Made by a program: the position numbers and the translations under genes. DNA of 64,000 nucleotides from Aggregicoccus sp. 17bor-14. Its GTDB lineage: Bacteria; Myxococcota; Myxococcia; Myxococcales; Myxococcaceae. How positions within the stretch are numbered: position 1 is the stretch's first letter; each line of letters opens with the position of its first letter. The notes below the pieces were generated by a model that was not told where the DNA came from, searched no databases, and saw only the letters and a program-made list of their open reading frames with translations. Shown here piece by piece: positions 1 through 63,910 of this stretch. The DNA is taken from NCBI RefSeq assembly GCF_009659535.1, contig NZ_VJZZ01000009.1, positions 181,793 to 245,792 on the forward strand. Direction: 5' to 3'.

Positions 1-1
1 G

Positions 2-649: not shown

Positions 650-1068
650 GCAAGCTGGGCAAGGGTGGACGCGGCACGGGGTTCGGCGCGAGCGCAGGGA
701 CGCGCGGCAGCGTGAGCGTGGCGGGGGTGCTCGCGCACCTGCTGCCGGCCGTGGCGGTGATGGTGCTGCTCACCGCGGTGGGCCTCGTGCACGTGACGGG
801 CCGCGTGATGGTGGTGGACGCGGGCTACCGCCTCAGCCGCTCGGAGGCCGAGAGCCGCACGCTGCAGCGCGAGAACGACCGGCTGAAGCTGGAGCTCGCC
901 ACGCTCAAGACCCCGGCGCGCCTCGAGCGGCTCGCGCGCGAGAAGCTGGGCATGGGGCTGCCGGCCACAGGCGCCGTCATCGCGCTCGCGCCGGCGCGCA
1001 CGCCCGCGCGCGTGCAGGCGCGCAGCAGCCACGCGGTGCAGGTGGCCGAGCGGAGCGCCGGGCAGTGA
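646..1068 (+). CDS. ftsL: Cell division protein FtsL
   Basis: Small bitopic divisome protein of 140 residues. Seen: a basic, glycine-rich cytoplasmic N-terminus, one hydrophobic segment at about residues 25-50 ([20 protein letters not shown]), then a short coiled-coil stretch rich in E, R and L ([20 protein letters not shown]) and the typical [11 protein letters not shown] motif. FtsL pairs with FtsB and FtsQ and activates the FtsWI synthase; FtsL families are weakly conserved, so the name rests on topology and on position between rsmH and ftsI. The ATG overlaps the rsmH stop by 4 bases, and the gene's own stop overlaps the GTG of ftsI, which suggests translational coupling. The frame is open further upstream, but only inside rsmH. 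Confidence 0.88.
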
Positions 1069-3119: not shown

Positions 3120-3189
3120 GGCCGCGCGCAGGAAGAGACGGCCTCCAGCCTCCCCCGCGCATGCAGCAGAGCTGTTGGAAGGGAAAACG

Positions 3190-4710: not shown

Positions 4711-4750
4711 GCTCGGCGGGCCCTCCCTCTCTCTCTACTCCCAGGGATTT

Positions 4751-6163: not shown

Positions 6164-6164
6164 C

Positions 6165-7331
6165 ATGCTCTTCTTCCTCTACGAGTGGCTCGCGAGCACC
6201 GAGGCCGCCCGCTTCCTCAACTTCCTGCGCTACCCCACCTTCCGCATCATCGCGGCCGGGGTGAGCGCGCTGCTGCTGGGCATGCTGGTGGGCCCCGGGC
6301 TCATCGAGCGGCTGCGCTTCAAGCAGCACGGCCAGAGCAACGTGCGCGAGGACACGCCGGACACGCACAAGAAGAAGAAGGGGACGCCCACCATGGGCGG
6401 CGCCCTCATCCTGCTGTGCATCGTGGCCGGCACGCTGATGTTCTGCGACCTGCGCAGCCGCGCGGTGTGGGCGGTGTTCATCCTCACCGTGGGCTACGGC
6501 TTCACCGGCTTCCTGGACGACTGGCTCAAGCTCTCCAAGCGCAACAGCAAGGGGCTCGCGGGGCGCAAGAAGCTGGTGCTGCAGACGCTGTTCTTCGCCA
6601 TCGCCGTGTTCGGCGTGATGACCGACTGGACGGGCGGGCACCCGCACCTGCTCATCGACACGCGGCTCACGCTGCCCTTCGTGCCCACGCACTGGTTCAG
6701 CCCGGACCTGGGCATCTTCTACGTCATCTTCGCGGGCTTCGTGGTGGTGGGCACCAGCAACGCGGTGAACCTCACGGACGGCCTGGACGGGCTCGCCATC
6801 GTGCCCACCATCATCTCGGCCATCACCTTCGCGGTGCTCTGCTACGTGGCGGGCACCACGCTCTCCATCTCGGACGTGGAGACGGTGAACGGCGCGGCGC
6901 GGCTGGTGGGCGTGCCGCTCTACCAGTACCTGGGCATCCCGCAGGTGCCGGGCGGCGCGGAGCTCGCGGTGTTCTGCGCGGCGATCGTGGGCGCGGGCAT
7001 CTCCTTCCTCTGGTTCAACACCTACCCGGCCAGCGTCTTCATGGGGGACATCGGCTCGCTCGCGCTGGGCGGCGCGCTGGGCGGGCTCGCCATGCTCTCC
7101 AAGAACGAGGTGGTGAGCGCCATCATCCACGGCGTGTTCCTCGCCGAGGCGCTCTCGGTGATGATCCAGGTGACCTCCTTCAAGCTCACCGGCCGGCGCG
7201 TCTTCAAGATGGCCCCGGTGCACCACCACTTCGAGCTCAAGGGCATGGCGGAGCCGAAGATCATCGTGCGCTTCTGGATCGCCGCCATCCTGTGCGGCGG
7301 GGTGGCGCTGCTCTCGCTCAAGCTGCGCTGA
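6165..7331 (+). CDS. mraY: Phospho-N-acetylmuramoyl-pentapeptide transferase MraY
   Basis: Polytopic membrane enzyme that transfers phospho-MurNAc-pentapeptide to undecaprenyl phosphate, giving lipid I. 388 residues against about 360 in E. coli; part of the excess is a loop near residues 225-265. Seen: KKKGTPTMGG early in the protein, GFLDDWLK (catalytic Asp pair), NAVNLTDGLDGLA, FMGDIGSLALG, and the HHHFELKG loop near the C-terminus, all hallmarks of the family. Many hydrophobic segments lie between them. The start is one base after the murF stop. Confidence 0.97.
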   Translation: MLFFLYEWLASTEAARFLNFLRYPTFRIIAAGVSALLLGMLVGPGLIERLRFKQHGQSNVREDTPDTHKKKKGTPTMGGALILLCIVAGTLMFCDLRSRAVWAVFILTVGYGFTGFLDDWLKLSKRNSKGLAGRKKLVLQTLFFAIAVFGVMTDWTGGHPHLLIDTRLTLPFVPTHWFSPDLGIFYVIFAGFVVVGTSNAVNLTDGLDGLAIVPTIISAITFAVLCYVAGTTLSISDVETVNGAARLVGVPLYQYLGIPQVPGGAELAVFCAAIVGAGISFLWFNTYPASVFMGDIGSLALGGALGGLAMLSKNEVVSAIIHGVFLAEALSVMIQVTSFKLTGRRVFKMAPVHHHFELKGMAEPKIIVRFWIAAILCGGVALLSLKLR

Positions 7332-7347
7332 AGGACGGCAATTCGCC

Positions 7348-8766
7348 ATGGCCTCGCCCCAGATGAAGCCGCTGCAGGACCTCCCCCGGGACTTGAAGGG
7401 CCGCAAGGTCGCGGTGTTCGGGCTCGCGAAGAGCGGGCTCGCGGCGGCGCGGCTGCTCGGCGCGCACGGCGCCCGCGTGACGGCGGTGGACGCGCGCAGC
7501 GAAGCGGCCCTGGGCGAGGCGGCCGCCTCCTTGCGCGCCGCGGGCGTGGCGCTCGCCGTGGGCGCGCCGCCCCCCGCGGGGCTGCTCGAGGGGCAGGACC
7601 TGGTGGTGGTGAGCCCGGGCGTGCCCCTGGCCCTGCCGGAGCTCGCGCGCACGCGCGCCGCGGGCGTACCGGTGTGGGGCGAGGTGGAGCTCGCCGGGCG
7701 CCTCCTCTCGCACGTGCCCCTGTTCGGCATCACCGGCACCAACGGCAAGAGCACGACGACGGCGCTCACCGGCGAGCTCTTCGCGGCGAGCGGCGCGCGC
7801 ACCTTCGTGGGCGGCAACCTGGGCCGGCCCTTCAGCGAGGCCGCGGAGCAGCCGGGCGCGTGGGATGCGCTGGTGGTGGAGCTGAGCAGCTTCCAGCTCG
7901 AGGGCATCGCCCAGCTCGCCCCGCGCGGCGCGGCCCTGCTCAACCTCACCCCGGACCACCTGGACCGCTACGAGGATCACCGCGCCTACGGCGCCGCCAA
8001 GGCGCGCATCTTCATGAACCAGGGCCCGGAGGACTTCTGCGTGGTGAACGCGGATGACCCCGAGGTGATGCGGCTCGCGGAGGGCGCGCGCTCGCGCGTG
8101 TACGGCTTCTCGCTCACGGGGCTCGTCGCGGCGCCCGCGCCGGCGCTCGCGGGGCTGGCCACCGCGGAGGAGGGCGGCTTCCGGCTCGCGCTCGAGCAGG
8201 GTGCACCGCCCGAGCGCTACCGGCTGGGCAACCGCTCCCTGCGCGGGGCGCACAACACCCAGAACGCCATGGCCGCGGCGCTGCTCGCGCGGCTCGGTGG
8301 GGTGGCGCCGGACGCGGTGCAGGCGGGGCTGGACGGCTACCCGGGGCTCGCGCACCGGCTGGAGAGCGTGCGCGTGCTCGGGGGCGTAGAGTGGGTGAAC
8401 GACTCCAAGGCCACCAACGTGGACAGCGTGCTGGTGGCGCTGCGCGCCTTCGCGGGGCCGCTGTGGCTCATTGCCGGAGGCAAGGGCAAGGGCGCGCCGT
8501 ACGCGCCCATGGTGGAGGCGGGGCAGGGGCGGGTGAAGGGCGTGCTCACCATCGGGCAGGACGCAGAGGCGCTCGCCCAGGCGTACGGGGGAAAAGCGGA
8601 GGTACACCCCTGCGGCACGCTGGCCCAGGCGGTGGCGCGTGCGCGGCAGCTCGCGCGCGAGGGCGACACGGTGCTGCTCTCGCCGGCCTGCGCGTCGTAC
8701 GATCAGTTCCAGAACTTCGAGGACCGCGGCGAGCAGTTCAAGCAGCTGGTCCGAGCGCTGGCGTAG
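7348..8766 (+). CDS. murD: UDP-MurNAc-alanine:D-glutamate ligase MurD
   Basis: Cytoplasmic Mur ligase adding D-glutamate to UDP-MurNAc-L-Ala; 472 residues. Seen: an N-terminal dinucleotide-like fold KVAVFGLAKSGLAAARLL, the ATP loop GITGTNGKSTTTAL (about 127-140), LTPDHLDRYEDH, the NDSKATNVDSVLVAL block of the C-terminal domain, and LLSPACASYDQFQNFEDRG, a MurD signature. The start ATG is 16 bases after mraY. It lies between mraY and ftsW, the canonical dcw position. Confidence 0.96.
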   Translation: MASPQMKPLQDLPRDLKGRKVAVFGLAKSGLAAARLLGAHGARVTAVDARSEAALGEAAASLRAAGVALAVGAPPPAGLLEGQDLVVVSPGVPLALPELARTRAAGVPVWGEVELAGRLLSHVPLFGITGTNGKSTTTALTGELFAASGARTFVGGNLGRPFSEAAEQPGAWDALVVELSSFQLEGIAQLAPRGAALLNLTPDHLDRYEDHRAYGAAKARIFMNQGPEDFCVVNADDPEVMRLAEGARSRVYGFSLTGLVAAPAPALAGLATAEEGGFRLALEQGAPPERYRLGNRSLRGAHNTQNAMAAALLARLGGVAPDAVQAGLDGYPGLAHRLESVRVLGGVEWVNDSKATNVDSVLVALRAFAGPLWLIAGGKGKGAPYAPMVEAGQGRVKGVLTIGQDAEALAQAYGGKAEVHPCGTLAQAVARARQLAREGDTVLLSPACASYDQFQNFEDRGEQFKQLVRALA

Positions 8767-8795
8767 CAGGGCACCGAAAAGGTCCAAGGCATCCG

Positions 8796-9968
8796 ATGAA
8801 GTCCTCCTCTCCCGCCGTCCGCTTCGACCCGGTGCTCCTGGGCGCGGTGTTCCTCCTCGTGGCCCTGGGGCTGGTGATGGTCTACTCGGCCAGCGCCGTG
8901 CTCGCGCAGGACAAGCTGGGTGACAGCCTCTACTTCCTCAAGCGCCAGCTCGCGGCCGCCGGCATGGGCCTGGTCGCGATGGCGGTGGCGATGAAGGTGG
9001 GCTGGCGCCGGCTCGCGCGCTTCGCCTACCCGCTGCTCCTCATCACCCTCGTGCTGCTGGTGGCGGTGCTCATCCCGGGGCTGGGCAGCACCGCGGGCGG
9101 CGCGCAGCGGTGGATCCGCCTGCCGGGCTTCGGGCTGCAGCCCGCGGAGGTCGCGAAGTTCTCCTGGGTGGTCTACCTGGCCTACTCACTCGCGAAGAAG
9201 CGCGAGAAGGTGGCGACCTTCTCGGTGGGCTTCCTGCCGCACCTGCTGCTGTGCGGCCTGCTGGTGGCGCTGTGCATGAAGCAGCCGGACTTCGGCAGCT
9301 CGGTGCTGCTGGTGTTCCTGCTCTTCGTGCTGCTCTTCGCGGCCGGAACGAAGCTGAGCTTCCTGGTGGGCAGCGTGCTCGCGGCGCTGCCGCTCGCGTA
9401 CGTCGCGGTGGCGCGCAGCCCCTACCGCATGAAGCGCATCCTCGCCTTCACCGACCCGTGGGCGCACCGCCACGACGTGGGCTACCAGGTGGCCGAGAGC
9501 CTGATGTCCATCGGCAGTGGCGGCGTCACCGGGCTGGGGCTGGGGGACGGGCGCCAGAAGCTCTTCTTCCTGCCCGAGGCGCACACCGACTTCATCTTCT
9601 CCATCATCGCCGAGGAGCTGGGGCTCATCGGGGTGGCGGTGCTGGTGACGCTCTACGGCGTCATCCTCTGGCGCGGGGTGCGCGCGGCGCTCGCCGCAGG
9701 GGAGACGTTCGGCACCTACCTGGGGCTGGGGCTGTGCTCCATCATCGGGTTCCAGGCGGTGGTGAACATGTGCGTGGCGATGGGGCTCCTGCCGACGAAG
9801 GGGCTGACCCTGCCCTTCGTCTCCTACGGCGGCACCTCGCTCGTCATCATGATGGGCGCGGCCGGGGTGCTCCTGTCCCTGAGCGCGAGCGCGGAAGGGG
9901 CGCGCGCCCCGGTGCGCAGCGGCGTGGGCGCGAGCGTGGGCTCGGACGTGCGGGAGGTGTCGGCGTGA
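8796..9968 (+). CDS. ftsW: Septal peptidoglycan glycosyltransferase FtsW (SEDS family)
   Basis: Polytopic SEDS protein that polymerises lipid II at the septum with FtsI; 390 residues. Seen: an N-terminal [24 protein letters not shown] segment region, GGAQRWI (the typical GAxRWI loop), QPAEVAKF, the [29 protein letters not shown] periplasmic loop, and [19 protein letters not shown] near the C-terminus. The frame is open to 8391, but that part lies inside murD. ATG 8796 starts the normal FtsW sequence 29 bases after the murD stop. The end overlaps the murG start at a GTGA junction. Confidence 0.96.
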
Positions 9969-11098
9969 AGGTGCTCATCGCAGGCGGAGGCACCGGGGGC
10001 CACCTCTTTCCCGGCATCGCGCTCGCCGAGGAGGTGACCACGCGCCACCCGCGCAACGAGGTGGTGTTCGCGGGCACCGACCGCGGGCTCGAGGCGCGCG
10101 TGGTGCCGGCGGCGGGCTACCTGCTGGAGACCATTCCGGCGCAGGGGCTCAAGGGCAAGGGCTTCCTCGGCCTGCTGCGCGGGCTGCTCGCGCTGCCGCT
10201 CGCCTTCGTGAAGAGCTTCCGCATCCTCGTGCGCCACAAGCCGGACGTGGTGGTGGGGGTGGGCGGCTACTCGAGCGGGCCGGTGGTGCTCGCGGCGTGG
10301 CTGATGGGCATCCCCACCGCGGTGCAGGAGCAGAACGCGCTGCCGGGCTTCACCAACAAGGTGCTGGGGAAGATGGTCAAGGTCGTCTTCACCTCCTTCC
10401 CGGAGGCGGCGCGCTTCTTCCCGCCCGCGAAGGTGCACCTCATCGGCAACCCCATCCGCCGCAAGCTGATGGACAACTACCTGCGCTCGAGCGTCGCGCA
10501 CGACGGCTTCAACGTGCTCGTGTTCGGCGGGAGCCTCGGCGCCAAGGCGCTCAACGCGCGGATGATCGAGGCGCTGGACTCGCTCGGAGATCTCAAGGAG
10601 CAGATCTCCTTCGTGCACCAGACGGGCAAGAAGGACGTGGAGGCGGTGCGCGAGGGCTACGCCGCGCGCGGCTTCAAGGCCCAGGTGAGCGAGTTCATCG
10701 AGGACATGTCCGCGGCCTACGCGAACGCCGAGCTGGTGGTGTGCCGCGCGGGCGCGACGACGCTCGCCGAGCTCACCGTCTGCAAGAAGGCGAGCATCCT
10801 GGTGCCCTTCCCCCACGCCACGGACAACCACCAGGAGGTCAACGCGATGAGCCTGGTGAACGTGGGCGCGGCAGTGATGATGCGCGAGGGCGAGCTCACC
10901 GGCGAGAAGCTCGCGCAGGAGATCCGCCGCCTCAAGGAGCACCCGGAGCAGCGCCGCCAGATGGAGAAGCGCGCGGGGCTGCTGGGCCGGCCCGAGGCGG
11001 CGAAGGAGCTCGCGGACGTGTGCGTGGAGCTGATGGTGCAGACCTGGGGCCAGAACGGCCGCGAGCGCCCGGAGAAGGGCGCGGAGGTGCGCAAGTGA
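9965..11098 (+). CDS. murG: UDP-GlcNAc:lipid I N-acetylglucosaminyltransferase MurG
   Basis: Peripheral membrane GT28 enzyme that converts lipid I to lipid II; 377 residues. Seen: the N-terminal glycine loop [11 protein letters not shown] (residues 6-16), [33 protein letters not shown], the second glycine loop [12 protein letters not shown], and [12 protein letters not shown] plus [14 protein letters not shown] for the donor site. The GTG start overlaps the ftsW stop and the end overlaps the murC start, which suggests coupled translation of ftsW-murG-murC. Confidence 0.96.
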
Positions 11099-12516
11099 GC
11101 CGCGTGAAGCCGCCGAGCCTGTTCAAGACGCGCCACGCCGCCCACGTGCACTTCGTGGGCATCGGCGGCATCGGGATGAGCGGCATCGCCGAGGTGCTGC
11201 TCAACCTCGGCTACAAGGTGAGCGGCTCGGACCTCAAGGAGAGCGACATCACGCGCCGGCTCGCCAAGCTGGGCGCGGACGTGCGCCTGGGCCACAAGGC
11301 CGAGAACCTGGTGCAGGCGGACGTGGTGGTCATCTCCTCCGCGGTGAAGAAGGACAACCCCGAGGTGATGGCGGCGCGCGCGCGCAAGATCCCCGTCATC
11401 CCGCGCGCCGAGATGCTCGCGGAGCTGATGCGGCTCAAGTACGCGGTCGCCATGGCGGGAAGCCACGGCAAGACCACCACCACCTCCATGGTGGCCACGG
11501 TGCTCGCGGCGGCCGGCCTGGACCCCACCGCGGTGGTGGGCGGCAAGGTCAACGTGCTGGGCAGCAACGCGAAGCTCGGCAAGAGCGAGCTGATGGTGGT
11601 GGAGGCGGACGAGAGCGACGGCTCCTTCCTGCACCTGCACCCCTCCATCGCGGTGGTCACCAACATCGACCCCGAGCACCTGGACCACTACGGCAACCTG
11701 GACGCGCTCAAGCGCGCCTTCGTGGAGTTCTGCAACCGCGTGCCCTTCTACGGGCTCAACGTGCTGTGCCTGGACCACCCCAACGTGCAGGCGCTGCTGC
11801 CGCACCTCGAGAAGCGCTACGTCACCTACGGCAGCTCGCACATGGCGGACTACCGGCTGGAGGGCGTGGAGCTGGACGGCTACAGCACGCGCTTTCGCGC
11901 CTGGCGCCGCGACGAGGACCTGGGCGAGTTCCGCGTGCGCATGGTGGGCGCGCACAACGCGCTCAACGCGCTCGCGGTCATCGCGGTGGCCGAGGAGATG
12001 GAGGTGCCGCTGGACACCGTGCGCACGGCGCTCGCGGAGTTCGGCGGGGTGCAGCGGCGCTTCACCGTGAAGGGCGAGGCGCGCGGCATCACCGTGGTGG
12101 ACGACTACGGGCACCACCCCACCGAGGTGCTGGCCACGCTCGCCGGCGCGCGCCGCGCCTTCGGGCGGCGCGTGGTGGTGGCCTTCCAGCCGCACCGCTA
12201 CACCCGCACGCGCGACCTGCTCTCCGAGTTCGCCACCGCCTTCAACGACGCGGACGTGCTCTTCGTCTCCGGCGTGTACGCGGCCGGCGAGGAGCCCATC
12301 CCGGGCGCGAACGGCGAGGCGCTGGCGGAAGCGGTGCGCGCGCACGGCCACCGCGACGTCACCTACGTGGAGAAGCGCACCGACCTTCCGGGCGCGCTGC
12401 TGCCGCGGCTCAAGGACGGCGACATCGTGCTCACCCTGGGCGCCGGCGACATCACCCAGGTGGGCCCCGACCTGCTCGGCCTGCTCGGCCACGCCGCGCC
12501 CGAGCGCAGCGCCTGA
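11095..12516 (+). CDS. murC: UDP-N-acetylmuramate:L-alanine ligase MurC
   Basis: First Mur ligase, adding L-Ala to UDP-MurNAc; 473 residues. Seen: [28 protein letters not shown] at the N-terminus (UDP-binding fold), the ATP loop [12 protein letters not shown] (about 121-132), [33 protein letters not shown] and [12 protein letters not shown] in the C-terminal domain. All are standard for MurC. The GTG start overlaps the murG stop. The frame runs upstream into murG, but the family N-terminus begins here. Confidence 0.96.
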
Positions 12517-12521
12517 AGGCC

Positions 12522-13451
12522 ATGGGCGCGTCTCTCGTGCAAGGGCTCGAGGCGATTCCCGGGCTCGAGGTGCGCGGCGACGCGCCGCTCGCCCCGCTCA
12601 CCAGCGTGCGTGCCGGCGGCAGCGCGGACGCGCTGGTGCGCCCGCGCTCTCCGGACGCGCTCGTCGCCCTGCTGCGCCACCTGCGCGCGGAAGGGCTTCC
12701 GCTCACGGTGCTGGGCGGCGGGGCGAACACGCTGGTGGGTGACGGCGGGGTGCGCGGCGTGACACTGCGGCTGCCCGGAGACCTCTTCGCGGAAGGCGTG
12801 GAGCTGGGGGCGGAGGAGGGGAGGCTCACGCTGGGCGCGGGTGCGGCCATCGTGCGGCTGCCCAACCTGATGCGCACCCACGCGCTGGTGGGCGCGGAGT
12901 TCCTCGCGGGAATTCCGGGCACGCTGGGTGGCGCGGTGACCATGAACGCCGGCACCAAGAACGGCGAGGCCTTCCGCGTGGTGGAGGCGGTGGAGCTGGC
13001 GACGGCGGAGGGGGTGGGGTGGCTGCCGCGCGAGCGCATCCCCCACGCCTACCGCCACACGGAGCTGCCCGCGGGCAGCGTGGTGACGCGGGTGCGCTTC
13101 TGCCTGCGGCGCGCCGGTCCCGAGGAGCTCGCGGCCTCGAAGGCGGCGATGGAGGCGGACCTCGGCTACCGCAAGCGCACCCAGCCCCTGAGCCAGCCGA
13201 ACTTCGGCAGCGTCTTCACCAACCCAACGGGAGACCACGCGGGAAGGCTCATCGAGCTCGCCGGTCTCAAGGGACACGTCCTCGGGCGCGCGCAGGTGTC
13301 CACGCTGCACGCGAACTGGATCGTGAACCTGGGCGGCGCCGCGGCGCGCGACGTGCTCGGGCTGATGATGCTGATGCAGACGCGGGTGCGCGAGCTCTCG
13401 GGCGTGGAGCTGCACCCGGAGGTCAAGCGCGTGGGTGAGTTCCTGCCCTGA
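12522..13451 (+). CDS. murB: UDP-N-acetylenolpyruvoylglucosamine reductase MurB
   Basis: FAD and NADPH-dependent reductase that makes UDP-MurNAc; 309 residues. Seen: LTSVRAGGSADALVRP (FAD fold), VLGGGANTLVGDGGVRG, GAEFLAGIPGTLGGAVTMNAG, and NFGSVFTNP with the catalytic serine. The length and lack of an inserted region fit the shorter type II MurB. ATG 12522 lies 5 bases after the murC stop. The next gene is ftsQ after a 238-base gap; no ddl is present. Confidence 0.95.
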   Translation: MGASLVQGLEAIPGLEVRGDAPLAPLTSVRAGGSADALVRPRSPDALVALLRHLRAEGLPLTVLGGGANTLVGDGGVRGVTLRLPGDLFAEGVELGAEEGRLTLGAGAAIVRLPNLMRTHALVGAEFLAGIPGTLGGAVTMNAGTKNGEAFRVVEAVELATAEGVGWLPRERIPHAYRHTELPAGSVVTRVRFCLRRAGPEELAASKAAMEADLGYRKRTQPLSQPNFGSVFTNPTGDHAGRLIELAGLKGHVLGRAQVSTLHANWIVNLGGAAARDVLGLMMLMQTRVRELSGVELHPEVKRVGEFLP

Positions 13452-13611
13452 GTGCGCGTTCCGCTGTGCGGTTGCACCCAGGGTAGCGCTGCACCCCACT
13501 AGCCCTTGGGTCACGCGGCGCGCTGGGCCCCAAGATGCGCAGGGCCATTCCGCGCGGCCGCGAAACAGGTATGGTGCTGCGCCCGCACCCCCTCTCCGCC
13601 GAGCGCTCCCA

Positions 13612-13663
13612 CTACAGCGACGTACCTGTAGCCAAAAACTGGCGTCGAGATCGCAGTGCGATC
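13612..13663 (+). promoter_or_regulatory. Cluster of three inverted repeats upstream of ftsQ
   Basis: Within the murB-ftsQ gap (13452-13689) three dyads follow one another: CTACAG/CTGTAG (13612-13617 and 13626-13631, 8-base spacer), GCCA/TGGC around AAAAC (starting 13631), and GATCGCA-G-TGCGATC (13649-13663, perfect 7-base arms). The last one ends 26 bases before the ftsQ ATG. They could be operators or leader hairpins; I cannot tell which. No convincing -35/-10 pair is visible beside them. Confidence 0.4.
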
Positions 13664-13689
13664 ATCCTGCGTCGGTACGGACCCCCCCC

Positions 13690-14556
13690 ATGGCCTTCGG
13701 AAGAGCCAAGAACCGCCGCCGCCAGGATGCGGCCCAGACGCGCGCGGCGGTGCAGGGCGCGGTGCGCACGCACGCGCCCACGGTGCTGCGCGCGCTGCTC
13801 ACCGCGGCGCTCACGGTGGGGCTGGTCTGGAGCGGGGTGGCGCTGCGCGCGTGGGCGCTCGCGTCCCCCACCTTCGCGCTGCAGGAGGTCACCTTCACGG
13901 GGCTCGCGCGCGCGGGGCGCCCGGAGCTGCTCAAGCTGAGCGGGCTCGCGCCGGGGCAGAACCTCTTCTCCCTGGACGTGGACCAGCTCGAGCGCAGCCT
14001 GATGGCGCACCCCTGGGTGCGCGCGGTGGAGGTGACGCGCCACTTCCCCGCCGCGGTCTCCGTGGTCGTGGAGGAGCACGTGCCGGTGGCGCTGGTGGTG
14101 CTCGGCGACCTCTACGTGCTGGACGAGCAGGGCGAGCCCTTCAAGCGCGTGGCCCCCTCGGACGCGCTGGACCTGCCGCTGGTGACGGGCGTGGACCGCG
14201 AGGCGTACGTGGCGGACGAGGCGCACACCCGCGCGCGCTTCCGCCAGGCGCTCGAGGTGGCGCGCGCGTACGCGGCGGCTTCCCCCTCGCGCCGCGAGCG
14301 CCTGAGCGAGGTGCGCCTCACCGGCGACGCGCTCACGCTGGTGAGCGCCACGGGGCAGGAGGTGCCGCTGGGGGAGGGGATGGAGGCGGAGCAGCTCGCG
14401 CAGAAGCTCGCGCGGCTGGAGAAGGTGCGCGGGGAGCTCGCGGAGCGCGGGCTCTCGGCCGAGGTCATCCACCTGGACAACCGGGCGCGTCCCGGCTGGG
14501 TGGCGGTGAAGCTTTCCGGTGCCGGCTCCGAGAGGACCGGGACCGCGACGCAGTAA
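13690..14556 (+). CDS. ftsQ: Cell division protein FtsQ (POTRA domain)
   Basis: Bitopic divisome scaffold linking FtsL/FtsB to the Z-ring machinery; 288 residues. Seen: a basic cytoplasmic N-terminus (AFGRAKNRRRQDAAQ), a membrane segment at about residues 38-58, then a POTRA-like domain (FALQEVTFTGLARAGRPELLKLSGLAPGQNLFSLDVDQLERSLMAHPWVRAVEVTRHFP), followed by the FtsQ beta domain with VLDEQGEPFKRV. ATG 13690 is chosen because translation from further upstream would add a basic, non-family stretch. The gene is followed 53 bases later by ftsA. Confidence 0.93.
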   Translation: MAFGRAKNRRRQDAAQTRAAVQGAVRTHAPTVLRALLTAALTVGLVWSGVALRAWALASPTFALQEVTFTGLARAGRPELLKLSGLAPGQNLFSLDVDQLERSLMAHPWVRAVEVTRHFPAAVSVVVEEHVPVALVVLGDLYVLDEQGEPFKRVAPSDALDLPLVTGVDREAYVADEAHTRARFRQALEVARAYAAASPSRRERLSEVRLTGDALTLVSATGQEVPLGEGMEAEQLAQKLARLEKVRGELAERGLSAEVIHLDNRARPGWVAVKLSGAGSERTGTATQ

Positions 14557-14609
14557 GCAATGGGACGCCCCCGGTCCGCGAGAGCGCGGGGGCGCTGGGA
14601 GGGAAGTCC

Positions 14610-15845
14610 ATGGCGAAGCAGAAGTCCGGGGAGATCATCGTCGGCCTCGACATCGGGACCACGAAGATCTGCGCCATCGTCGGTGAGCTCACCGACAGCG
14701 GCATCGACATCATCGGCATCGGCACGCACCCGTCGAAGGGGCTGCGCAAGGGCGTGGTCGTCAACATCGAGGCGACCGTGGCCTCCATCCGCCGCGCGGT
14801 GGAGGAGGCGGAGCTCATGGCGGGCGCCGAGATCTCCCACGTGTACACCGGCATCGCCGGCGGCCACATCAAGGGCTTCAACTCGCAGGGCATCGTGGCG
14901 GTGAAGGAGAAGGAGGTGCGCGAGGCGGACATCGCGCGCGTCATCGACGCCGCCAAGGCCGTGGCCATCCCGCTGGACCGGGAGGTCATCCACGTGCTGC
15001 CCCAGGAGTTCATCATCGACGACCAGGGCGGCATCAAGGAGCCGCTCGGGATGGCGGGCGTGCGCCTGGAGGCCAAGGTGCACATCGTCACGGGCGCGGT
15101 GAGCAGCGCGCAGAACATCGTGAAGTGCGCGAACCGCACCGGCCTGAACGTCAGCGACATCGTGCTGCAGCCGCTCGCGTCGGCGGAGGCCGTGCTCGGC
15201 GAGGACGAGAAGGAGCTGGGCGTGTGCCTCGTGGACATCGGCGGGGGCACCACCGACATCGCCATCTTCTCCGGCGGCTCCATCGTGCACACCGCGGTCA
15301 TCGCGCTGGGCGGCAACAACCTCACCAGCGACATCGCCATCGGGCTGCGCACGCCCGCGCACGAGGCGGAGCGCATCAAGCAGAAGTACGGCTGCGCGCT
15401 CGCCTCCATGGTGAACAAGGACGAGACCCTGGAGGTGCCCAGCGTGGGCGGCCGCCAGCCGCGCGTGCTCGGCCGGCAGATCCTCTGCGAGATCCTCGAG
15501 CCTCGCGTGGAGGAGATCTTCCAGCTGGTGCACCGCGAGATCCAGAAGTGCGGCTACGAGGACCTGCTCGCCTCGGGCGTGGTCATCACCGGCGGCAGCA
15601 CGCTGCTCGCCGGCATGCCGGAGCTGGCCGAGGAGGTCATCGGCCTGCCGGTGCGCCGCGGCATGCCGCGCGGCATCGGCGGCCTGGTGGACGTGGTGAA
15701 GAGCCCCATGTACGCGACCGGCGTGGGCCTGGTGGTGTACGGCGCCAAGCACCTGGACCGCCGCATGTTCCGCATCCGCGAGGACGGCAACGCGTACAAG
15801 AAGGTGAAGAACCGCATGCGCGAGTGGCTCGAAGAGATCTTCTAG
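14610..15845 (+). CDS. ftsA: Cell division protein FtsA
   Basis: Actin-fold ATPase that tethers FtsZ to the membrane; 411 residues. Seen: the phosphate-1 motif IVGLDIGTTKICAIVGE at the N-terminus, the 1C domain (VVVNIEATVASIRRAVEEAELMAG), phosphate-2 CLVDIGGGTTDIAIFSGG, and the adenosine motif VVITGGSTLLAGM. The C-terminus MREWLEEIF is the amphipathic membrane-targeting helix. ATG 14610 is preceded by GGGAGGGAAG. The gene is followed immediately by a strong terminator. Confidence 0.96.
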   Translation: MAKQKSGEIIVGLDIGTTKICAIVGELTDSGIDIIGIGTHPSKGLRKGVVVNIEATVASIRRAVEEAELMAGAEISHVYTGIAGGHIKGFNSQGIVAVKEKEVREADIARVIDAAKAVAIPLDREVIHVLPQEFIIDDQGGIKEPLGMAGVRLEAKVHIVTGAVSSAQNIVKCANRTGLNVSDIVLQPLASAEAVLGEDEKELGVCLVDIGGGTTDIAIFSGGSIVHTAVIALGGNNLTSDIAIGLRTPAHEAERIKQKYGCALASMVNKDETLEVPSVGGRQPRVLGRQILCEILEPRVEEIFQLVHREIQKCGYEDLLASGVVITGGSTLLAGMPELAEEVIGLPVRRGMPRGIGGLVDVVKSPMYATGVGLVVYGAKHLDRRMFRIREDGNAYKKVKNRMREWLEEIF

Positions 15846-15864
15846 CCCTGCGCAGTGCTTGAAC

Positions 15865-15904
15865 GACCCCCTCTGGCGTTGTCAACGGCCAAAGGGGGTC
15901 TTTC
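15865..15904 (+). terminator. Rho-independent terminator between ftsA and ftsZ
   Basis: The arms GACCCCCTCTGGC and GGCCAAAGGGGGTC pair almost perfectly around a short GTTGTCAAC-containing loop and are followed by TTTCT. It lies 20 bases after the ftsA stop and 118 bases before ftsZ, so it should end most transcription of the upstream dcw genes. Confidence 0.8.
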
Positions 15905-15939
15905 TATCCCTGCGATGCTACAGGGCCGTAGCGGAAAAC

Positions 15940-15967
15940 TTGCCAAAGATCCCGTCCTGTTGATGAT
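15940..15967 (+). promoter_or_regulatory. Candidate sigma70-type promoter for ftsZ
   Basis: TTGCCA at 15940-15945 and GATGAT at 15962-15967 with a 16-base spacer, about 55 bases before the ftsZ ATG. Each box matches consensus at 4-5 of 6 positions. It is the best pair I can see downstream of the terminator; the case rests on the need for a separate ftsZ promoter. Confidence 0.3.
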
Positions 15968-16022
15968 GGCGGCCTCAGTAGCAGGGGGGCGGCAGCGCGC
16001 GACCTGCCGTTGAAAGGGACCC

Positions 16023-17246
16023 ATGGACCATTTCGAGCAGAGCAAGCAGGCCGCGAAGATCCGCGTGGTGGGCGCCGGCGGTGCCGGGTGCAACGCCGTC
16101 AACACGATGATCTCGGCGAAGCTGGACCGGGTGGACTTCATCGCCGCCAACACCGATGTGCAGGCGCTCGCCGCGAGCAAGGCGCCCACGCGGATCCAGC
16201 TGGGCCAGATGCTCACCAAGGGCCTGGGCGCGGGCGCGAACCCCGAGATGGGCCGCGAGGCAGCGCTCGAGAGCCGGGAGCAGATTGCGCAGCTGCTCGA
16301 GGGCGCGGACATGGTGTTCGTCACCGCCGGCATGGGCGGCGGCACGGGCACCGGCGCAGCCCCCATCATCGCGGACATCGCCAAGAGCCTGGGCGCGCTC
16401 ACCGTGGGCGTCGTCACCAAGCCCTTCCTCTTCGAGGGCAACCGCCGCCGCAAGCAGGCCGAGCAGGGGCTCATCGAGCTCAAGGCCGCGGTGGACACGC
16501 TCATCACCATCCCCAACCAGCGGCTGCTCACCCTGAGCAACGAGCCGATGCCGCTGCTGGAGACCTTCAAGCGCGCGGACGAGGTGCTGCTCAACGCCGT
16601 GCAGGGCATCTCCGACCTCATCCAGTACCACGGCTACATCAACGTGGACTTCGCGGACGTGAAGACCATCATGAGCGACAAGGGGCTCGCGCTGATGGGT
16701 ACGGGCCGCGCGGCCGGCGCCCAGCGCGCGCTCAACGCCATGCAGCAGGCCATCAGCAGCCCGCTGCTCGAGGACGTGACCATCGACGGCGCCACCGGCC
16801 TGCTCATCAACATCACGGGCGGCCGCGACATGACCCTGCAGGAGGTCAACGAGGCGCTCACGCTGGTGCACGACGCCGCGGACAACGAGGCCGAGATCAT
16901 CTTCGGCTCGCTCATCGACGAGACCATCCAGGACGAGGTGAAGATCACCATCATCGCCACCGGCTTCGTGCAGCGCGAGGCGAAGAGCCGCATCGTGCAG
17001 CCGGTGATGCAGGCGCCGCTCATCGCGCGCCCCGCGCCTGCGGTGCTCAGCGCCGCGCGCGAGGAGGTGGCGAGCCTGGTCCCCGCGAAGAGTGGCTCGC
17101 GCAGCCTCAGCGCCGCGGATGCGGGCAAGGCCGCGGTGGCCACCGCGCGCACCGCCGTGGTGAAGGACCCGGCGCTGCCCCTGGACGAGGATCAGTTCGA
17201 CATCCCCACCTTCCTGCGCCGCCAGGGCCAGACGGAGATGCCGTAG
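16023..17246 (+). CDS. ftsZ: Cell division GTPase FtsZ
   Basis: Tubulin-like GTPase that forms the Z-ring; 407 residues. Seen: [17 protein letters not shown], the tubulin signature [12 protein letters not shown] (about 103-114), the [12 protein letters not shown]7-loop region, and, after a variable linker, a conserved C-terminal peptide [10 protein letters not shown] that binds FtsA. The ATG lies after GAAAGGGACCC. It stands alone after the ftsA terminator and is followed by a convergent small gene only 16 bases away. Confidence 0.97.
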
Positions 17247-55733: not shown

Positions 55734-56228
55734 ATGCTCGAGCCCCTCGCGCAGCCCTTCCACCTCGTGCTGGTGGCCCCGCAGATTCCGCCCAACACCG
55801 GCAACGTGGCGCGCCTGTGCGCCGTCACCGGCTGCCGCCTCATCCTCGTGGAGCCGCTCGGCTTCTCCATCGCGGACCGCGACCTGAAGCGCGCCGGGCT
55901 CGACTACTGGGACAAGGTGTTCCTCGCGCTCTACCCCTCGTTCGACGCCTACGTCGCCGCGTTCCCGCAGGCCCGCCGCTGGCTCTTCTCCGCGCGCGCG
56001 AGCACCTCGCTCTACGCCGCGCGCTTCAGTCCCGGCGACCACCTCGTCTTCGGCGCCGAGACCACCGGGCTGCCCCCCGAGGTCATGCAGTCGGGTGTGG
56101 GTGAAGCCCTGACCATCCCGATGCTCCCGGAGCGCCGCAGCCTCAACCTGTCCACCTCGGTAGGCATCGCCACCTACGAGGCCCTGCGCCAGGTGCAGCT
56201 GAGCAGGCAGGCAGACCCCACAAGTTGA
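55734..56228 (+). CDS. trmL: tRNA (cytidine/uridine-34-2'-O)-methyltransferase TrmL
   Basis: 164 residues, SPOUT fold. Seen: HLVLVAPQIPPNTGNVARLCAVTGCRLILVEPLGF, LDYWDKV, LVFGAETTGLPPEV, and the knot region MLPERRSLNLSTSVGIATYEALRQ. It modifies the wobble base of tRNA-Leu. The next gene starts 34 bases later. Confidence 0.95.
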   Translation: MLEPLAQPFHLVLVAPQIPPNTGNVARLCAVTGCRLILVEPLGFSIADRDLKRAGLDYWDKVFLALYPSFDAYVAAFPQARRWLFSARASTSLYAARFSPGDHLVFGAETTGLPPEVMQSGVGEALTIPMLPERRSLNLSTSVGIATYEALRQVQLSRQADPTS

Positions 56229-56262
56229 GAGAAGGGCAGGAGGCACTACACTGCGGCGGTCC

Positions 56263-59200
56263 ATGTCCTCCTCGCAGGTCGCCGAAGCGCTGTACGCCGT
56301 CCACCGGAACCGGGCCACGGGGGCGCTCACCCTGCGCGCCGGGAGCCGGGAGGCGCGGCTGCTCGTGCGCGAGGGCGACCTCGTCGGCGCGCAGCTCGGC
56401 TTCGGCCACCAGTCCGCGGCGCAGGCGCTGCTGCAGTCCGGCCGCCTGAGCCCCGCGCAGCTGGATGCGCTGTGGGCCCGCGGCAGCGCGGGGAGCGTGG
56501 ACGAGGAGCTGCTCGAGGAGCTCGGGCTGTCCGCGGAGGAGCTCACCCATGCCCAGGCGCTCGCGCAGGTGCGCCGGCTGAGCCAGCTCGCCGAGAGCGC
56601 GCAGTTCGAGGCGGGCGCGGTGCAGGGCGCCTTCGCCCCCATCGCGAGCACCCGCGTGGTGCGGGCGGCGCTGGATGCTCCGCCCGGCGTGGTGCAGCGC
56701 GTGTACCGCTGCGCGGACGTCGAGCGCTGCAGCCCGTGGCTCCACGACGCGGGCGAGCGCAGCGCCCTCGCAGAGCTCACCGAGTTCCGGCGCATCGAGC
56801 CGCTCGCGGCCGAGTTCGCGGCACTGCTGGCGTTGCTCGAGCGCGAGGGCTGCGTCGAGTCCCTCACCGTGGACGCGTGGGAGGCGCGCGAGGCCGAGCG
56901 GCGCGCGGAGCTGGAGCGCCAGGAGCAGGCGCGGCTCGCCGAAGAGGCACGCCTCGCGGAAGAGCTTCGTCTCGCGGAGGAGGCCCGGCTTACAGAGGAG
57001 CGCCGACTCGCTGAGGAGGCTCGTCTCGCCGAGGAAGCGCGCCTCGCCGAAGAGGCGCGGCTCGCGGAGGAGGCTCGCGTCGCCGAAGAGCTCCGCGCAG
57101 CGGAGGAGGCGCGCCGGGCCGAGGAGCTCCGCCGTGCAGAGGAGGCGCGGCGCGCCGAAGAGGCGCTGCGTGCCGAGCAGGCGCGACTCGCTGAGGAGGC
57201 ACGCCGGGCCGAAGAGGCGCGTGTCGCCGAAGAGGCTCGCCTGGCAGAAGCCGCGCGGCTTGCTGAGGAACTGCGACTGGCCGAGGAGTCTCGTCTCGCG
57301 GAGGAGGCCCGCCTCGCCGAAGAGGCGCGACGGGCAGAGGAGGCGCGCGTTGCGGAAGCGGCGCGCCTGGCCGAGGAGGCGCGCGCAGCGGAAGAGGCGC
57401 GCCTTGCCGAGCTGGCTCGTGCCGCGGAGGCGGCTCGGATCGAAGAGCAGCTGCGCGCCGAAGCGGCACGGCTCGAGGCCGAGCGCGTGGCCGAAGCGGA
57501 GCGCGTTGCGGAGGCCGCTCGCGTGGCCGAGGCGCAGCGTCTCGCCGAGGAGGAGCGCCGGCTTGAGAAGGAGGCCCGCGCCGCCGAGGCGCTCCGTCTC
57601 GCCGAGGAAGCAGCGCGTCGCGAGCGCGAGCGTCTCGCGGCGGAAGCGCAGGCCGCAGAGGAAGCGCGGATTGCCGCGGCAGCCCGTGAGGCCGCGGAGC
57701 GTTACGCCGCCGAGCTGGCGCGTCGGGCCGAGGAGGCGCTCCAGGCCGAGCAGGCGCGTTTCGCCGAAGAGGCCCGCCTCGCGGAGCTCGCTCGCAAGGC
57801 CGAGGAGGCCCGCGCAGCGGAAGCGGCGCGCCTGGCCGAAGAGGCCCGCCTCGCAGACGAGGCGCGCCGGGCCGAGGCTGCACGGCTCGCAGAAGAGGCC
57901 CGCCTCGCCGAAGAGGCGCGTCTCGCCCACGAGGCGCACCTCGCAGCGCAGGCGCGTCTGGCCGAAGAGGCCCGCCTCGCTCGCGAGGCACAGCTCGCCG
58001 AAGAGGCCCGCTTCGCGGAGGAGGCTCGACTCGCCGAGGAGGCCCGTCAGGCCGAAGCGGCTCGCCTCGCGGAGGAGGCCTTCCTCGCAGAGCAGGTGCG
58101 CCTCGCCGAGGAGGCGCGCGCTGCCGAGGCGGCCCTCGCCGCGGAGCAGGCGCGGCTCGCAGAAGCGGTGCGTGCCCAGGAGGCCGCGCGCCACGCCGAG
58201 GCGCTGCGCCAGGCGGAGGAGACCCAGCGCGTGCAGGCGGCGCTCGAGGCCGAGCACGCCCGCCGGGAGGCCGCGGAGCGCGACGCAGAGGCTGCGCGGC
58301 TCGCGCAGCTGCGCCTCGACTGGGAGCAACACCAGGAGGAGCAGCGCAGGCGCAGCGTGCCGGCGCCGCGTCGCACCCCGCCTCCGACGCTGTTCCCCGT
58401 GGACGCAGGTGCCCCGGTCACCGCGCAGTCGGAGCCGGAGATCCTCCCGGTCACGGAGCTGCTCACGGCCGACGACGACGTCCTGACGGGCTCGTGGGGC
58501 GATGCGATCGCGCCCGTGCAGGCGGCCCAGGAGACGCAGGCCCTGCGCGATGCGCGCCAGCGTGCGCAGGACGCCCTGCTGCACGACATGCAGGAGGCAC
58601 TGCGCCGCGCGGGGGCGGGCTCCTCGCCCCTGGAGGCGTGGCTCGCGGATGGCCCCACGGCTCCGCCGCGCCCCGCGCCTGCTGCGCCCTCTGCAGAGGA
58701 GCTCCCGACGCTGGACCTGAGCTCCGTCGAGCCTCCGGTGCTCGAGGCGGAGCCCCTGCCCACCGAGCCCGAGCTCCCTGCCGCGGACGCGCCGAGCGCC
58801 TCCGCCGCGAACGTCGAGGACGCGTGGACGCAGGTCCCGGCGTCGGTGCCGCAGCCCCTGTTTCTCGGGCCTTCGGCGCAGGCGCCCGGGGAGGACGACC
58901 TGTGGCGCATCGTCTCCGAGCCGCGGGGCGGTCAGCCGCAGAGCCTCTCCTCCTCGTTCGACGCGGTCTTCGAGCAGGTGGACGCGAACCTCGAGGCGCT
59001 CGTCGGCTTCGAGCAGCTCACGGCCGAGGCGGAGGTGCTGCCGGTCGAGGCCATCGTCGAGGCAGAGGTCGAGCTGGCGACGACGGGTGACAACGGCACC
59101 GTTTCTGGAGACACTGCACCCCTGGACGACCCCGGGATGCAGGACTCCTGGGGGTTCGACGAGGACGACGTGGGGGACCCCAACAATCCGGAAGACGCGG

Positions 59201-60075
59201 CGCGGATGCGCCGGCAGCGGCTGCTTCGCCGTGCCATGGAGAACATGGGCGCGCTGCCGTCGCGCCCCGGCGAGCCTCCTGCGCCTGCCCCGGTGCCGGC
59301 GGCCGCAGCGCCTGCCGCCGCCTCCAGTCCGGCGACCGCCGCCACTGCCCCCAGCGCGGAAGAGGGAAAGCTCGCCGCGCAGATCGAGCAGCGCTTCGCC
59401 GCGCTGCGCGGCCCGCGCGACCACTTCGCGGTGCTCGGGCTCGCGCCCCAGGCAGGCCGCGATCAGGTGAAGACGGCGTTCCTCTCGCTCGCCAAGGTGT
59501 TCCACCCGGACCGCCTGCCCCCGGCGCTCTCGGCGCTCGCGCCGAAGATGACCTCGGTGTTCGAGTCCATCCGCGAGGCCTACGAGGTCCTCTACGACGA
59601 CGCGAAGCGCCAGGCCTACCTGCAGCAGCTCGCGCGCGCCCAGGCCACCGCGGCGCCCAAGCCCCCGGCCAACGCCACCGAGGCCGCCGCGGACTTCTTC
59701 AAGCGGGGCGAGGCCCTGCTGCGCAAGCGCGAGTTCGCCCAGGCCGAGGAGCTCTACGGCCGCGCGCACCAGGCGGACCCCAAGCCGCTGTACCTCGCGG
59801 CGCGCGCCTGGGCGCTGTACATGGACCCCCAGCGCAAGGGCGAGATCCCGCGCGCGAAGCAGATGATGGCGGATGCCGTGCGCGCGGAACCTACCTGTGA
59901 CCGCGCGCACTACCAGCTGGGGGTGATCGCCCGGGTCGAGAACGACGCGGATCGCGCCGAGCGCCACTTCCGGCTCGCGGTCCAGGCGAACCCCAAGCAC
60001 CTCGAGGCGAACCAGGAGCTGCGCCTCATCGAGATGCGCAAGGGGAAGGCCCCCAAGAAGGGCCTGTTCCGCTAG
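56263..60075 (+). CDS. Large protein with hexad-repeat helix and C-terminal J domain plus TPR
   Basis: 1270 residues. Seen: an N-terminal region (1-205) with a DUF4388-like start (VAEALYAVHRNRATGALTLRAGSREARLLVREGDLVGAQLGF); a long charged helix at about 207-696 built from six-residue units of the form RLAEEA with variants; an Ala/Pro/Glu-rich linker to about 1040; a J domain (about 1047-1125) with HPD at 1081-1083; and TPR units to the end (EELYGRAHQADPKPLYLAARAWALYMDP, RAEPTCDRAHYQLGVIARV). J domains stimulate Hsp70, so a DnaK-linked scaffold is plausible. No signal peptide or membrane segment. Confidence 0.9.
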   Translation: MSSSQVAEALYAVHRNRATGALTLRAGSREARLLVREGDLVGAQLGFGHQSAAQALLQSGRLSPAQLDALWARGSAGSVDEELLEELGLSAEELTHAQALAQVRRLSQLAESAQFEAGAVQGAFAPIASTRVVRAALDAPPGVVQRVYRCADVERCSPWLHDAGERSALAELTEFRRIEPLAAEFAALLALLEREGCVESLTVDAWEAREAERRAELERQEQARLAEEARLAEELRLAEEARLTEERRLAEEARLAEEARLAEEARLAEEARVAEELRAAEEARRAEELRRAEEARRAEEALRAEQARLAEEARRAEEARVAEEARLAEAARLAEELRLAEESRLAEEARLAEEARRAEEARVAEAARLAEEARAAEEARLAELARAAEAARIEEQLRAEAARLEAERVAEAERVAEAARVAEAQRLAEEERRLEKEARAAEALRLAEEAARRERERLAAEAQAAEEARIAAAAREAAERYAAELARRAEEALQAEQARFAEEARLAELARKAEEARAAEAARLAEEARLADEARRAEAARLAEEARLAEEARLAHEAHLAAQARLAEEARLAREAQLAEEARFAEEARLAEEARQAEAARLAEEAFLAEQVRLAEEARAAEAALAAEQARLAEAVRAQEAARHAEALRQAEETQRVQAALEAEHARREAAERDAEAARLAQLRLDWEQHQEEQRRRSVPAPRRTPPPTLFPVDAGAPVTAQSEPEILPVTELLTADDDVLTGSWGDAIAPVQAAQETQALRDARQRAQDALLHDMQEALRRAGAGSSPLEAWLADGPTAPPRPAPAAPSAEELPTLDLSSVEPPVLEAEPLPTEPELPAADAPSASAANVEDAWTQVPASVPQPLFLGPSAQAPGEDDLWRIVSEPRGGQPQSLSSSFDAVFEQVDANLEALVGFEQLTAEAEVLPVEAIVEAEVELATTGDNGTVSGDTAPLDDPGMQDSWGFDEDDVGDPNNPEDAARMRRQRLLRRAMENMGALPSRPGEPPAPAPVPAAAAPAAASSPATAATAPSAEEGKLAAQIEQRFAALRGPRDHFAVLGLAPQAGRDQVKTAFLSLAKVFHPDRLPPALSALAPKMTSVFESIREAYEVLYDDAKRQAYLQQLARAQATAAPKPPANATEAAADFFKRGEALLRKREFAQAEELYGRAHQADPKPLYLAARAWALYMDPQRKGEIPRAKQMMADAVRAEPTCDRAHYQLGVIARVENDADRAERHFRLAVQANPKHLEANQELRLIEMRKGKAPKKGLFR
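56881..58350 (+). repeat. 18-base tandem repeat region encoding hexads (consensus RLAEEA)
   Basis: About 490 residues. The period is six residues, not the seven of a coiled coil. Units differ mainly at the R, L and E positions and by synonymous codons, so the array looks old rather than freshly expanded. Confidence 0.85.
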
Positions 60076-60131
60076 GTGCGGGGCCGTCCGCAGGGCAGGG
60101 AGCCGGTCATGGCCCCGAGCCCCCGCAGCCG

Positions 60132-60161
60132 TTGACAGCGTGCAACGCGCAACGTGATCAT
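60132..60161 (+). promoter_or_regulatory. Candidate promoter of the response regulator-DUF4388-TPR gene
   Basis: TTGACA (60132-60137, perfect consensus) and GATCAT (60156-60161, 4 of 6), spacer 18. It is about 60 bases upstream of the GTG at 60223. Confidence 0.45.
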
Positions 60162-60222
60162 CCCGCCTCTCCTCGCGCCCGGCTTTCTCCTCGGTAGCGC
60201 CGGCAGCGAAAGGTAAGCACAC

Positions 60223-62886
<2,664 letters not shown>

Positions 62887-62911: not shown

Positions 62912-63910
62912 GTGCTCGTACTCGGCCTGGAGACCTCCTGCGATGAGACCGCTGCGGCGCTGGTAGAGGACGGCCGGCGCGTGCTCTCCGACGTCGTGTC
63001 CACCCAGGTGGACATCCACCGGCGCTGGGGTGGGGTGGTGCCGGAGCTCGCCAGCCGCAACCACGTGGTGCAGGTGATGCCGGTGCTGCACGAGGCGCTC
63101 ACGCGCGCGGGCAAGCGCCTGGACGACGTGGACCTCATCGCCGTCACCTCGGGCCCCGGCCTCATCGGCGCGCTGCTGGTGGGCCTGCAGGTGGCCAAGA
63201 GCCTCAGCCTCGCCACCGGCAAGCCCTTCGTGGGCGCGAACCACCTCGAGGGCCACCTGCTGGCCATCCGCCTCCTGGAGGACGCGCCCGAGCCTCCCTT
63301 CCTCGGGATGGTGGTCAGCGGCGGCCACACCAGCCTCTACGAGGTGCAGGCCTACGGGCGCTACCGCCTGGTGGGCAGCACCCGCGACGACGCGGCCGGC
63401 GAGGCCTTCGACAAGACGGCGCGCATCCTCGGGCTGCCGTACCCGGGCGGGCTGCCCATCGATCAGCTCGCCCAGAAGGGCGACCCCACGGCCATCCGCT
63501 TTCCGCGCGCGCTGCCGCAGACGGACCACTTCGACTGGTCCTTCAGCGGGCTGAAGACCTCGGTGCTGCACCACGTGAAGAAGCACGGCGTGCCGCAGGG
63601 CCAGGCGCTCGCGGACCTGTGCGCGAGCTTCCAGGAGGCCGTGGCGGACAGCCTCAGCCGCAAGTTCGTGCTCGCGGCGAAGCGCCTCGGCCTCACGCAG
63701 CTGGTGGTGTGCGGCGGCGTGGCGGCCAACTCGCGGCTGCGCAGCCTGTGCCAGGAGCGCGCCGAGGAGCGGGGCCTGAAGCTGTTCCTCCCGCCGGTGC
63801 GCCTGTGCACGGACAACGGCGCGATGATCGCGGTCGCCGGCTACGAGGCGTGGCGGCGCGGACTGCGCGGCGACTTCCGCCTCGCGGCGGACCCCGCCTG
63901 GCGCATGTGA
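62912..63910 (+). CDS. tsaD: tRNA N6-adenosine threonylcarbamoyltransferase TsaD
   Basis: 332 residues. Seen: LGLETSCDETAAALVEDG at the N-terminus, VPELASRNHV, NHLEGHLLA (metal-binding HxxxH), MVVSGGHTSL, VVCGGVAANSRL and LCTDNGAMIA. Forms the t6A37 modification in ANN-decoding tRNAs with TsaB and TsaE, which are not in this window. GTG 62912 is the natural start. rsmA follows after 10 bases. Confidence 0.96.
   Translation: MLVLGLETSCDETAAALVEDGRRVLSDVVSTQVDIHRRWGGVVPELASRNHVVQVMPVLHEALTRAGKRLDDVDLIAVTSGPGLIGALLVGLQVAKSLSLATGKPFVGANHLEGHLLAIRLLEDAPEPPFLGMVVSGGHTSLYEVQAYGRYRLVGSTRDDAAGEAFDKTARILGLPYPGGLPIDQLAQKGDPTAIRFPRALPQTDHFDWSFSGLKTSVLHHVKKHGVPQGQALADLCASFQEAVADSLSRKFVLAAKRLGLTQLVVCGGVAANSRLRSLCQERAEERGLKLFLPPVRLCTDNGAMIAVAGYEAWRRGLRGDFRLAADPAWRM

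Follow-up and report, generated by a model that had tools for sequence, protein, structure and literature searches.

The locus described here raises the question of what a six-residue repeat spanning some 491 residues is doing in the middle of a bacterial J-domain protein. The gene lies in a 64,000-nucleotide stretch of Aggregicoccus sp. 17bor-14 (contig NZ_VJZZ01000009.1, positions 181,793 to 245,792; hereafter the window), where an open reading frame (ORF) with an ATG start at 56263-60075 of the forward strand encodes a protein of 1270 amino acids (aa). An N-terminal PATAN/DUF4388 head is followed by the repeat (hereafter the rod), a linker, a J domain and a TPR domain. An earlier sequence-only reading of this DNA had described a DUF4388-like head joined by a helix to a J domain and TPR, and our comparison of relatives supports that layout, which is that of a conserved orthologous family. 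The rod is best read as a predicted single alpha-helix (SAH).

The hexad repeat is real and well beyond chance. Its period is exactly six, with residue identities of 0.57, 0.60 and 0.57 at lags of 6, 12 and 18 against 0.23 +/- 0.018 in shuffled sequences, and the strongest Fourier peaks of charge and of large hydrophobic residues both fell at 60 degrees. The rod contains no proline and no glycine and is composed mainly of Ala (34%), Glu (26%), Arg (19%), Leu (11%) and Gln (4%), with E+R+K amounting to about 45%. The sequence-only reading was thus correct in naming a six-residue unit (RLAEEA) instead of a heptad, but it erred on two details: the alanines, which it spaced at i, i+4, occupy positions 3 and 6 of the consensus and are three residues apart, and the glutamates, which it had alternating with arginine, come in pairs. 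Within the window's own genome, the exact 12-residue hexad-pair pattern was confined to the rod gene, and no solved structure with a sequence similar to the rod was found. At the DNA level, Tandem Repeats Finder revealed an 18-bp tandem repeat of 68.9 imperfect copies with 64% matches. GC content at third codon positions was lower in the rod (0.80) than outside it (0.92-0.97), as if codon choice disrupted the DNA repeat, and ten orthologous rods gave 0.59-0.77 compared with 0.77-0.94 outside the rod.

Along a helix, each hexad turns by about 240 degrees, and leucines are therefore spread over three faces without forming a seam. The heptad coiled-coil test found no hydrophobic a/d pattern in the rod: the best a/d score was 0.22, below that of shuffled rods (0.26) and far below that of tropomyosin (0.65). 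The helical hydrophobic moment was 0.138 versus 0.166 after shuffling, while tropomyosin gave 0.295 versus 0.167; tropomyosin and GCN4 served as control sequences. Charges along the rod are complementary. Like-charge pairs at i+3/i+4 were depleted six-fold (17 against 106 expected), opposite-charge pairs were enriched, and the main salt bridges are E-R at i+3 (76 against 25 expected) and R-E at i+3/i+4. The rod therefore has sequence features by which SAHs are recognized, namely a Pro/Gly-free stretch rich in E/R/K, avoidance of like charges with opposite charges at i+3/i+4, and absence of a hydrophobic seam. An AlphaFold2 monomer model, whose alignment depth was essentially limited to the C-terminal domains, placed helices at residues 203-380, 384-509 and 513-695, mostly with per-residue confidence (pLDDT) of 75-90. 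The structure prediction that the earlier reading had named as a check thus returned a helical rod apart from two breaks, in agreement with the single-helix character that it had suggested.

Some observations weigh against this assignment. The most stabilising spacing, E-to-R at i+4, was not enriched (21 against 25 expected), and the E+R+K content of the rod lies under that of classical ER/K helices, which reach 80% E/K/R. AlphaFold2 also placed two interruptions in the rod, where pLDDT dropped to 53-65, and the predicted template modelling score (pTM) of the whole protein was only 0.31. Both breaks coincide with or adjoin RLAELA hexads, of which the rod has only two, and divide it into helices of 178, 126 and 183 residues, a division that, together with the frequent association of long Ala/Leu-containing helices, would suit an intramolecular bundle of three long helices or an oligomeric coiled coil. 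We consider such packing unlikely, given an a/d score and a hydrophobic moment under those of shuffled rods, hydrophobic positions that turn by about 120 degrees from one hexad to the next so that no stripe arises, and rods with other periods in relatives. An alpha/beta coiled coil of hexads, or beta-layer fibre, has a precedent in trimeric coiled coils, where inserting six residues can impose beta-layers (PMC4786415), but the rod is predicted to be helical except at the two short breaks and has Ala/Glu at the would-be layer positions, making this form extremely improbable. We read the rod as a mostly continuous single helix that is probably monomeric, with two possible hinges.

The contour length of such a helix would be about 74 nm (491 x 0.15 nm), close to the 70 nm of the rigid rod envisaged earlier. 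Given that the persistence length of ER/K-type helices is roughly 15-20 nm, a semi-flexible tether with a mean end-to-end distance of about 40-47 nm is expected. Rigidity was not supported, considering this persistence length and the two predicted breaks; the rod is probably a semi-flexible tether.

Comparison of repeat units and of relatives indicates that the repeat is old and maintained as a helix. Neither Pro nor Gly occurs among the 88 residues departing from RLAEEA, whereas one or the other would result from 17-35% of single-base non-synonymous changes. The ratio of non-synonymous to synonymous differences (pN/pS) between rod units was 0.37-0.41, with silent sites close to saturation, and in 22 pooled rods (18,353 residues) Gly and Pro reached 0.16 and 0.22, respectively, of the frequencies expected from mutation. 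These values bear on the explanation that the rod arose by neutral expansion of the GC-rich 18-bp repeat and is a functionless stretch of low complexity, either disordered or incidental. The tandem repeat itself, the highly variable rod length among relatives and the lack of a rod in some lineages and related families would fit such an origin. We nevertheless regard it as very unlikely, as Pro/Gly are strongly excluded, pN/pS stays below 0.42, the units have diverged at silent sites, the reading frame is intact in nearly all complete relatives, and different repeat units arrive at a similar composition.

The search for orthologs covered 60 related genomes, 31 named loci and one phylum sample. 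One ortholog per genome was found in most of Myxococcaceae, including Myxococcus, Corallococcus, Pyxidicoccus, Archangium and Hyalangium. Within the window's family, the order trmL, rod gene, receiver/PATAN/TPR gene, tsaD was preserved wherever the contig was long enough, and the trmL-to-tsaD order was largely kept in family f5 and at L065 (f8), there with a rodless protein of PATAN, J and TPR domains. By these comparisons, the rod gene is inherited vertically. The architecture does not depend on the rod, since related myxobacterial families have PATAN-J-TPR proteins without it (L059-L065). In frames that also hold the head, rods ranged from about 63-68 residues (L049, L050) through 192 (L046) up to 1272, and L112, on a single 9.8-Mb contig, has a Pro/Gly-free run of 1279 residues. 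Close relatives differ by hundreds of rod residues, as do L040 and L078, although draft assemblies can misjudge repeats. Many drafts (L033, L043, L047, L051-L055 and others) stop inside the rod, and their frames are cut and their rod lengths unreliable. The period across relatives is mostly 6, in some 8 and in others a 6/7 mixture, while the composition is similar. Across the family, the conserved property is a charged, Pro/Gly-poor helix, and neither the hexad nor an exact ruler length.

The head was not matched in G019, G033 and G156, members of the same family with small genomes (2.1-2.7 Mb), nor was the neighbouring response-regulator/PATAN/TPR gene in G019 and G033. L101 comes from a record labelled Comamonas sp. 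KCTC 72670 but falls with Myxococcus xanthus in the tree, and the record is probably mislabelled or contaminated. The first 240 residues encoded by the adjacent gene are 78-94% identical across the family, above the head and J-TPR of the rod protein. On the sequence evidence, this gene is probably a functional partner of the rod protein.

The folded domains differ in how clearly they are recognized. DUF4388 (PF14332) matched the full-length protein barely above its cut-off (25.5 bits against 25; 29.8 for the head alone), and its alignment covers only profile positions 8-73 of 122; the Pfam profile (E up to 10) matched all 26 aligned heads. The AlphaFold2 model of the head has a pLDDT of 89 and a pTM of 0.84, and it resembled no PDB fold significantly (Foldseek E 0.24 and VIA Z 4.5 at best). 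A weak local likeness of residues 49-104 (56407-56574) to the c-di-GMP-binding N-terminal domain of PilF/MshE (Z about 3), though suggestive in a domain type linked to PilB binding, was not used as evidence. The J domain passes the Pfam cut-off, its HPD motif is intact, and HPD was invariant among 51 J-TPR sequences; the protein is a class C J-domain (Hsp40) protein by its possession of a J domain with HPD. TPR_1 fell slightly under its cut-off (27.3 against 27.8 bits), and an ortholog (L078) reached 37.9. The C-terminal model matched TPR folds (best Z 17.3, root-mean-square deviation 2.9 over 120 residues), among them OM64, RPAP3, SGT and CHIP at Z of about 15-17; these structural matches establish the predicted fold, not the ligand. 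The linker is divergent between relatives apart from two conserved motifs (Table 1).

With moderate confidence, we propose that the protein serves myxobacteria as a dedicated Hsp70 co-chaperone, docked on a target complex by its PATAN head. The helix of about 491 residues and the disordered linker would act as a tether holding the J and TPR domains tens of nm from the head. Recruitment and stimulation of a DnaK-family Hsp70 would fall to the J domain, and the TPR domain would hold either the Hsp70 or its client. We infer both the tether role of the rod and the recruitment of Hsp70 by the J domain.

The leading candidate for the target of the head, put forward tentatively by analogy and less likely than not, is the motor of the type IV pilus or its polarity machinery. 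It was raised because in cyanobacteria PATAN regulators bind PilB (the Synechocystis response regulators PixG, PixE and LsiR bind PilB1/PilC) and a DnaK1/DnaJ(TPR)/GrpE system targets the pilus motor through PilB (PMC12288463, PMC9239167), and because M. xanthus has SglK, required for S-motility (PMC8265645), and StkA, which works between pili and Dif signalling (PMC4319316). The PATAN proteins MXAN_3211 and MXAN_4965 co-occur with the pilus regulator SgmX (PMC11580455); neither was matched to the rod gene or its neighbour (MXAN_3210-3212 were looked up). For SglK and StkA, Hsp70s of the pilus and exopolysaccharide (EPS) pathways, no named J partner in M. xanthus was found. Two observations speak against a pilus role: the locus sits between trmL and tsaD, outside any pilus cluster, and PilB-type ATPases matched in 60/60 relatives, including some in which the neighbour gene was not found, and therefore co-occurrence gives the link no support.

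The protein might instead be an ordinary J protein that delivers clients in proteostasis, or its target might have no connection to pili and lie, for example, in division or polarity. No pilus genes were found in the part of the window that was scanned, a division/cell-wall cluster lies about 40 kb upstream (1065-17246: transpeptidase, Mur ligases, MraY-type transferase, FtsZ), and J-TPR proteins are numerous in these genomes, with 12 matches in the one that contains the window. A regulatory target is suggested instead by the specific PATAN head together with the conserved response-regulator/PATAN neighbour, and we hold the pilus-independent alternative to be a substantial possibility, although below even chance. 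The window's own genome also has 18 DUF4388 matches and two rodless PATAN-J-TPR paralogs (L066 and L067, the latter with a weak receiver match). A more ambitious form of the pilus proposal, in which an SAH among the longest known, reaching a contour of about 190 nm in relatives, is an evolutionarily adjustable tether and the J protein, anchored by its head and acting as the missing partner of SglK or StkA, brings Hsp70 activity from a distance to the polar type IV pilus machinery, is speculative and unlikely to hold in full.

The features of the locus are collected in Table 1. We rejected an antisense ORF at 56143-62070 (1975 aa), which spans the rod gene and most of the next gene, and attribute it to the GC-rich, repetitive DNA, since the domains, the orthology and the GC content at third positions in head and tail all point to the forward frame. 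Defence-system models gave no match, and the search of a plasmid collection gave none either.

Table 1. Coordinates of the rod gene, its parts and its conserved neighbours in the window
Feature	Position	Residues (aa)	Strand	Evidence
PATAN/DUF4388 head	56263..56874	1-204	+	Pfam DUF4388, AlphaFold2, conservation across orthologs
Hexad-repeat rod, predicted single alpha-helix	56878..58353	206-697	+	Period 6, no heptad seam, Pro/Gly exclusion, AlphaFold2 helical
Low-complexity Pro/Ala-rich linker, predicted disordered except short helices	58354..59415	698-1051	+	pLDDT mostly <50
Conserved linker motif DLWRIV...SFDAVFEQVDANLEALVG	58897..59007	~879-915	+	Alignment, n=32 linkers
Conserved basic helix RMRRQRLLRRAMENMG in linker	59203..59250	~981-996	+	Alignment, n=32 linkers; helical in AlphaFold2 model
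J domain, HPD at 1081-1083	59419..59619	1053-1119	+	Pfam DnaJ 46.4 bits
TPR domain, C-terminal	59686..60042	1142-1260	+	Model pLDDT ~97; TPR fold match
trmL-like methyltransferase gene, conserved upstream neighbour	55734..56228		+	Synteny
Response regulator - PATAN - Pro/Ala linker - TPR gene, conserved downstream neighbour	60223..62886		+	Pfam; synteny in relatives
tsaD, conserved downstream neighbour	62912..63910		+	Synteny

None of the protein's domains is new, and proteins of the J-TPR and PATAN types are common; what is notable is the length of the helix and the natural length series. No paper joining DUF4388 and DnaJ was found in a literature search from which subscription journals were mostly absent, which is weak evidence of novelty. 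With rods that range from nearly absent to about 1,280 residues, this single orthologous gene amounts to a natural experiment on what such tethers do, and by analogy the rod protein would be a concrete J-protein candidate for SglK and StkA in S-motility and EPS control.

Among known systems, cyanobacterial DnaK1/DnaJ3/GrpE resembles the rod protein in having J and TPR on one protein, in being a dedicated Hsp70 side-system and in its suggested link to surface motility (PMC9239167, PMC12288463). However, the reviewed description of DnaJ3 gives it TPRs but mentions neither a PATAN head nor a long helix, its system's pilus interaction comes from two-hybrid assays whereas that of the rod protein is hypothetical, and dnaK1/grpE often lie near pilBTC, unlike the rod gene with its neighbours trmL, the response-regulator/PATAN/TPR gene and tsaD. 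PixG, PixE and LsiR share PATAN/DUF4388 with the rod protein, and a receiver domain with the adjacent gene; the rod protein itself lacks a receiver domain and has J and TPR in addition. Closest in domain order are the rodless L059-L065 and the paralogs L066 and L067, of which L060, L061 and L063-L065 also share the neighbourhood. As in SAH or ER/K helices, for example those of myosins, the rod is a long, Pro/Gly-poor charged helix between folded domains without a hydrophobic seam. Known SAHs average about 75 residues, with about 200 in the longest myosin SAHs (PMC5378345), compared with 491 to about 1,280 here, and if the helix is monomeric, SAH lengths would be extended several-fold past those reported. 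The rod also departs from classical SAHs in its hexad repeat, its richness in Ala and its lower E/R/K content. Domain II of TolA, a long Pro/Gly-poor charged linking helix, may be comparable to the rod.

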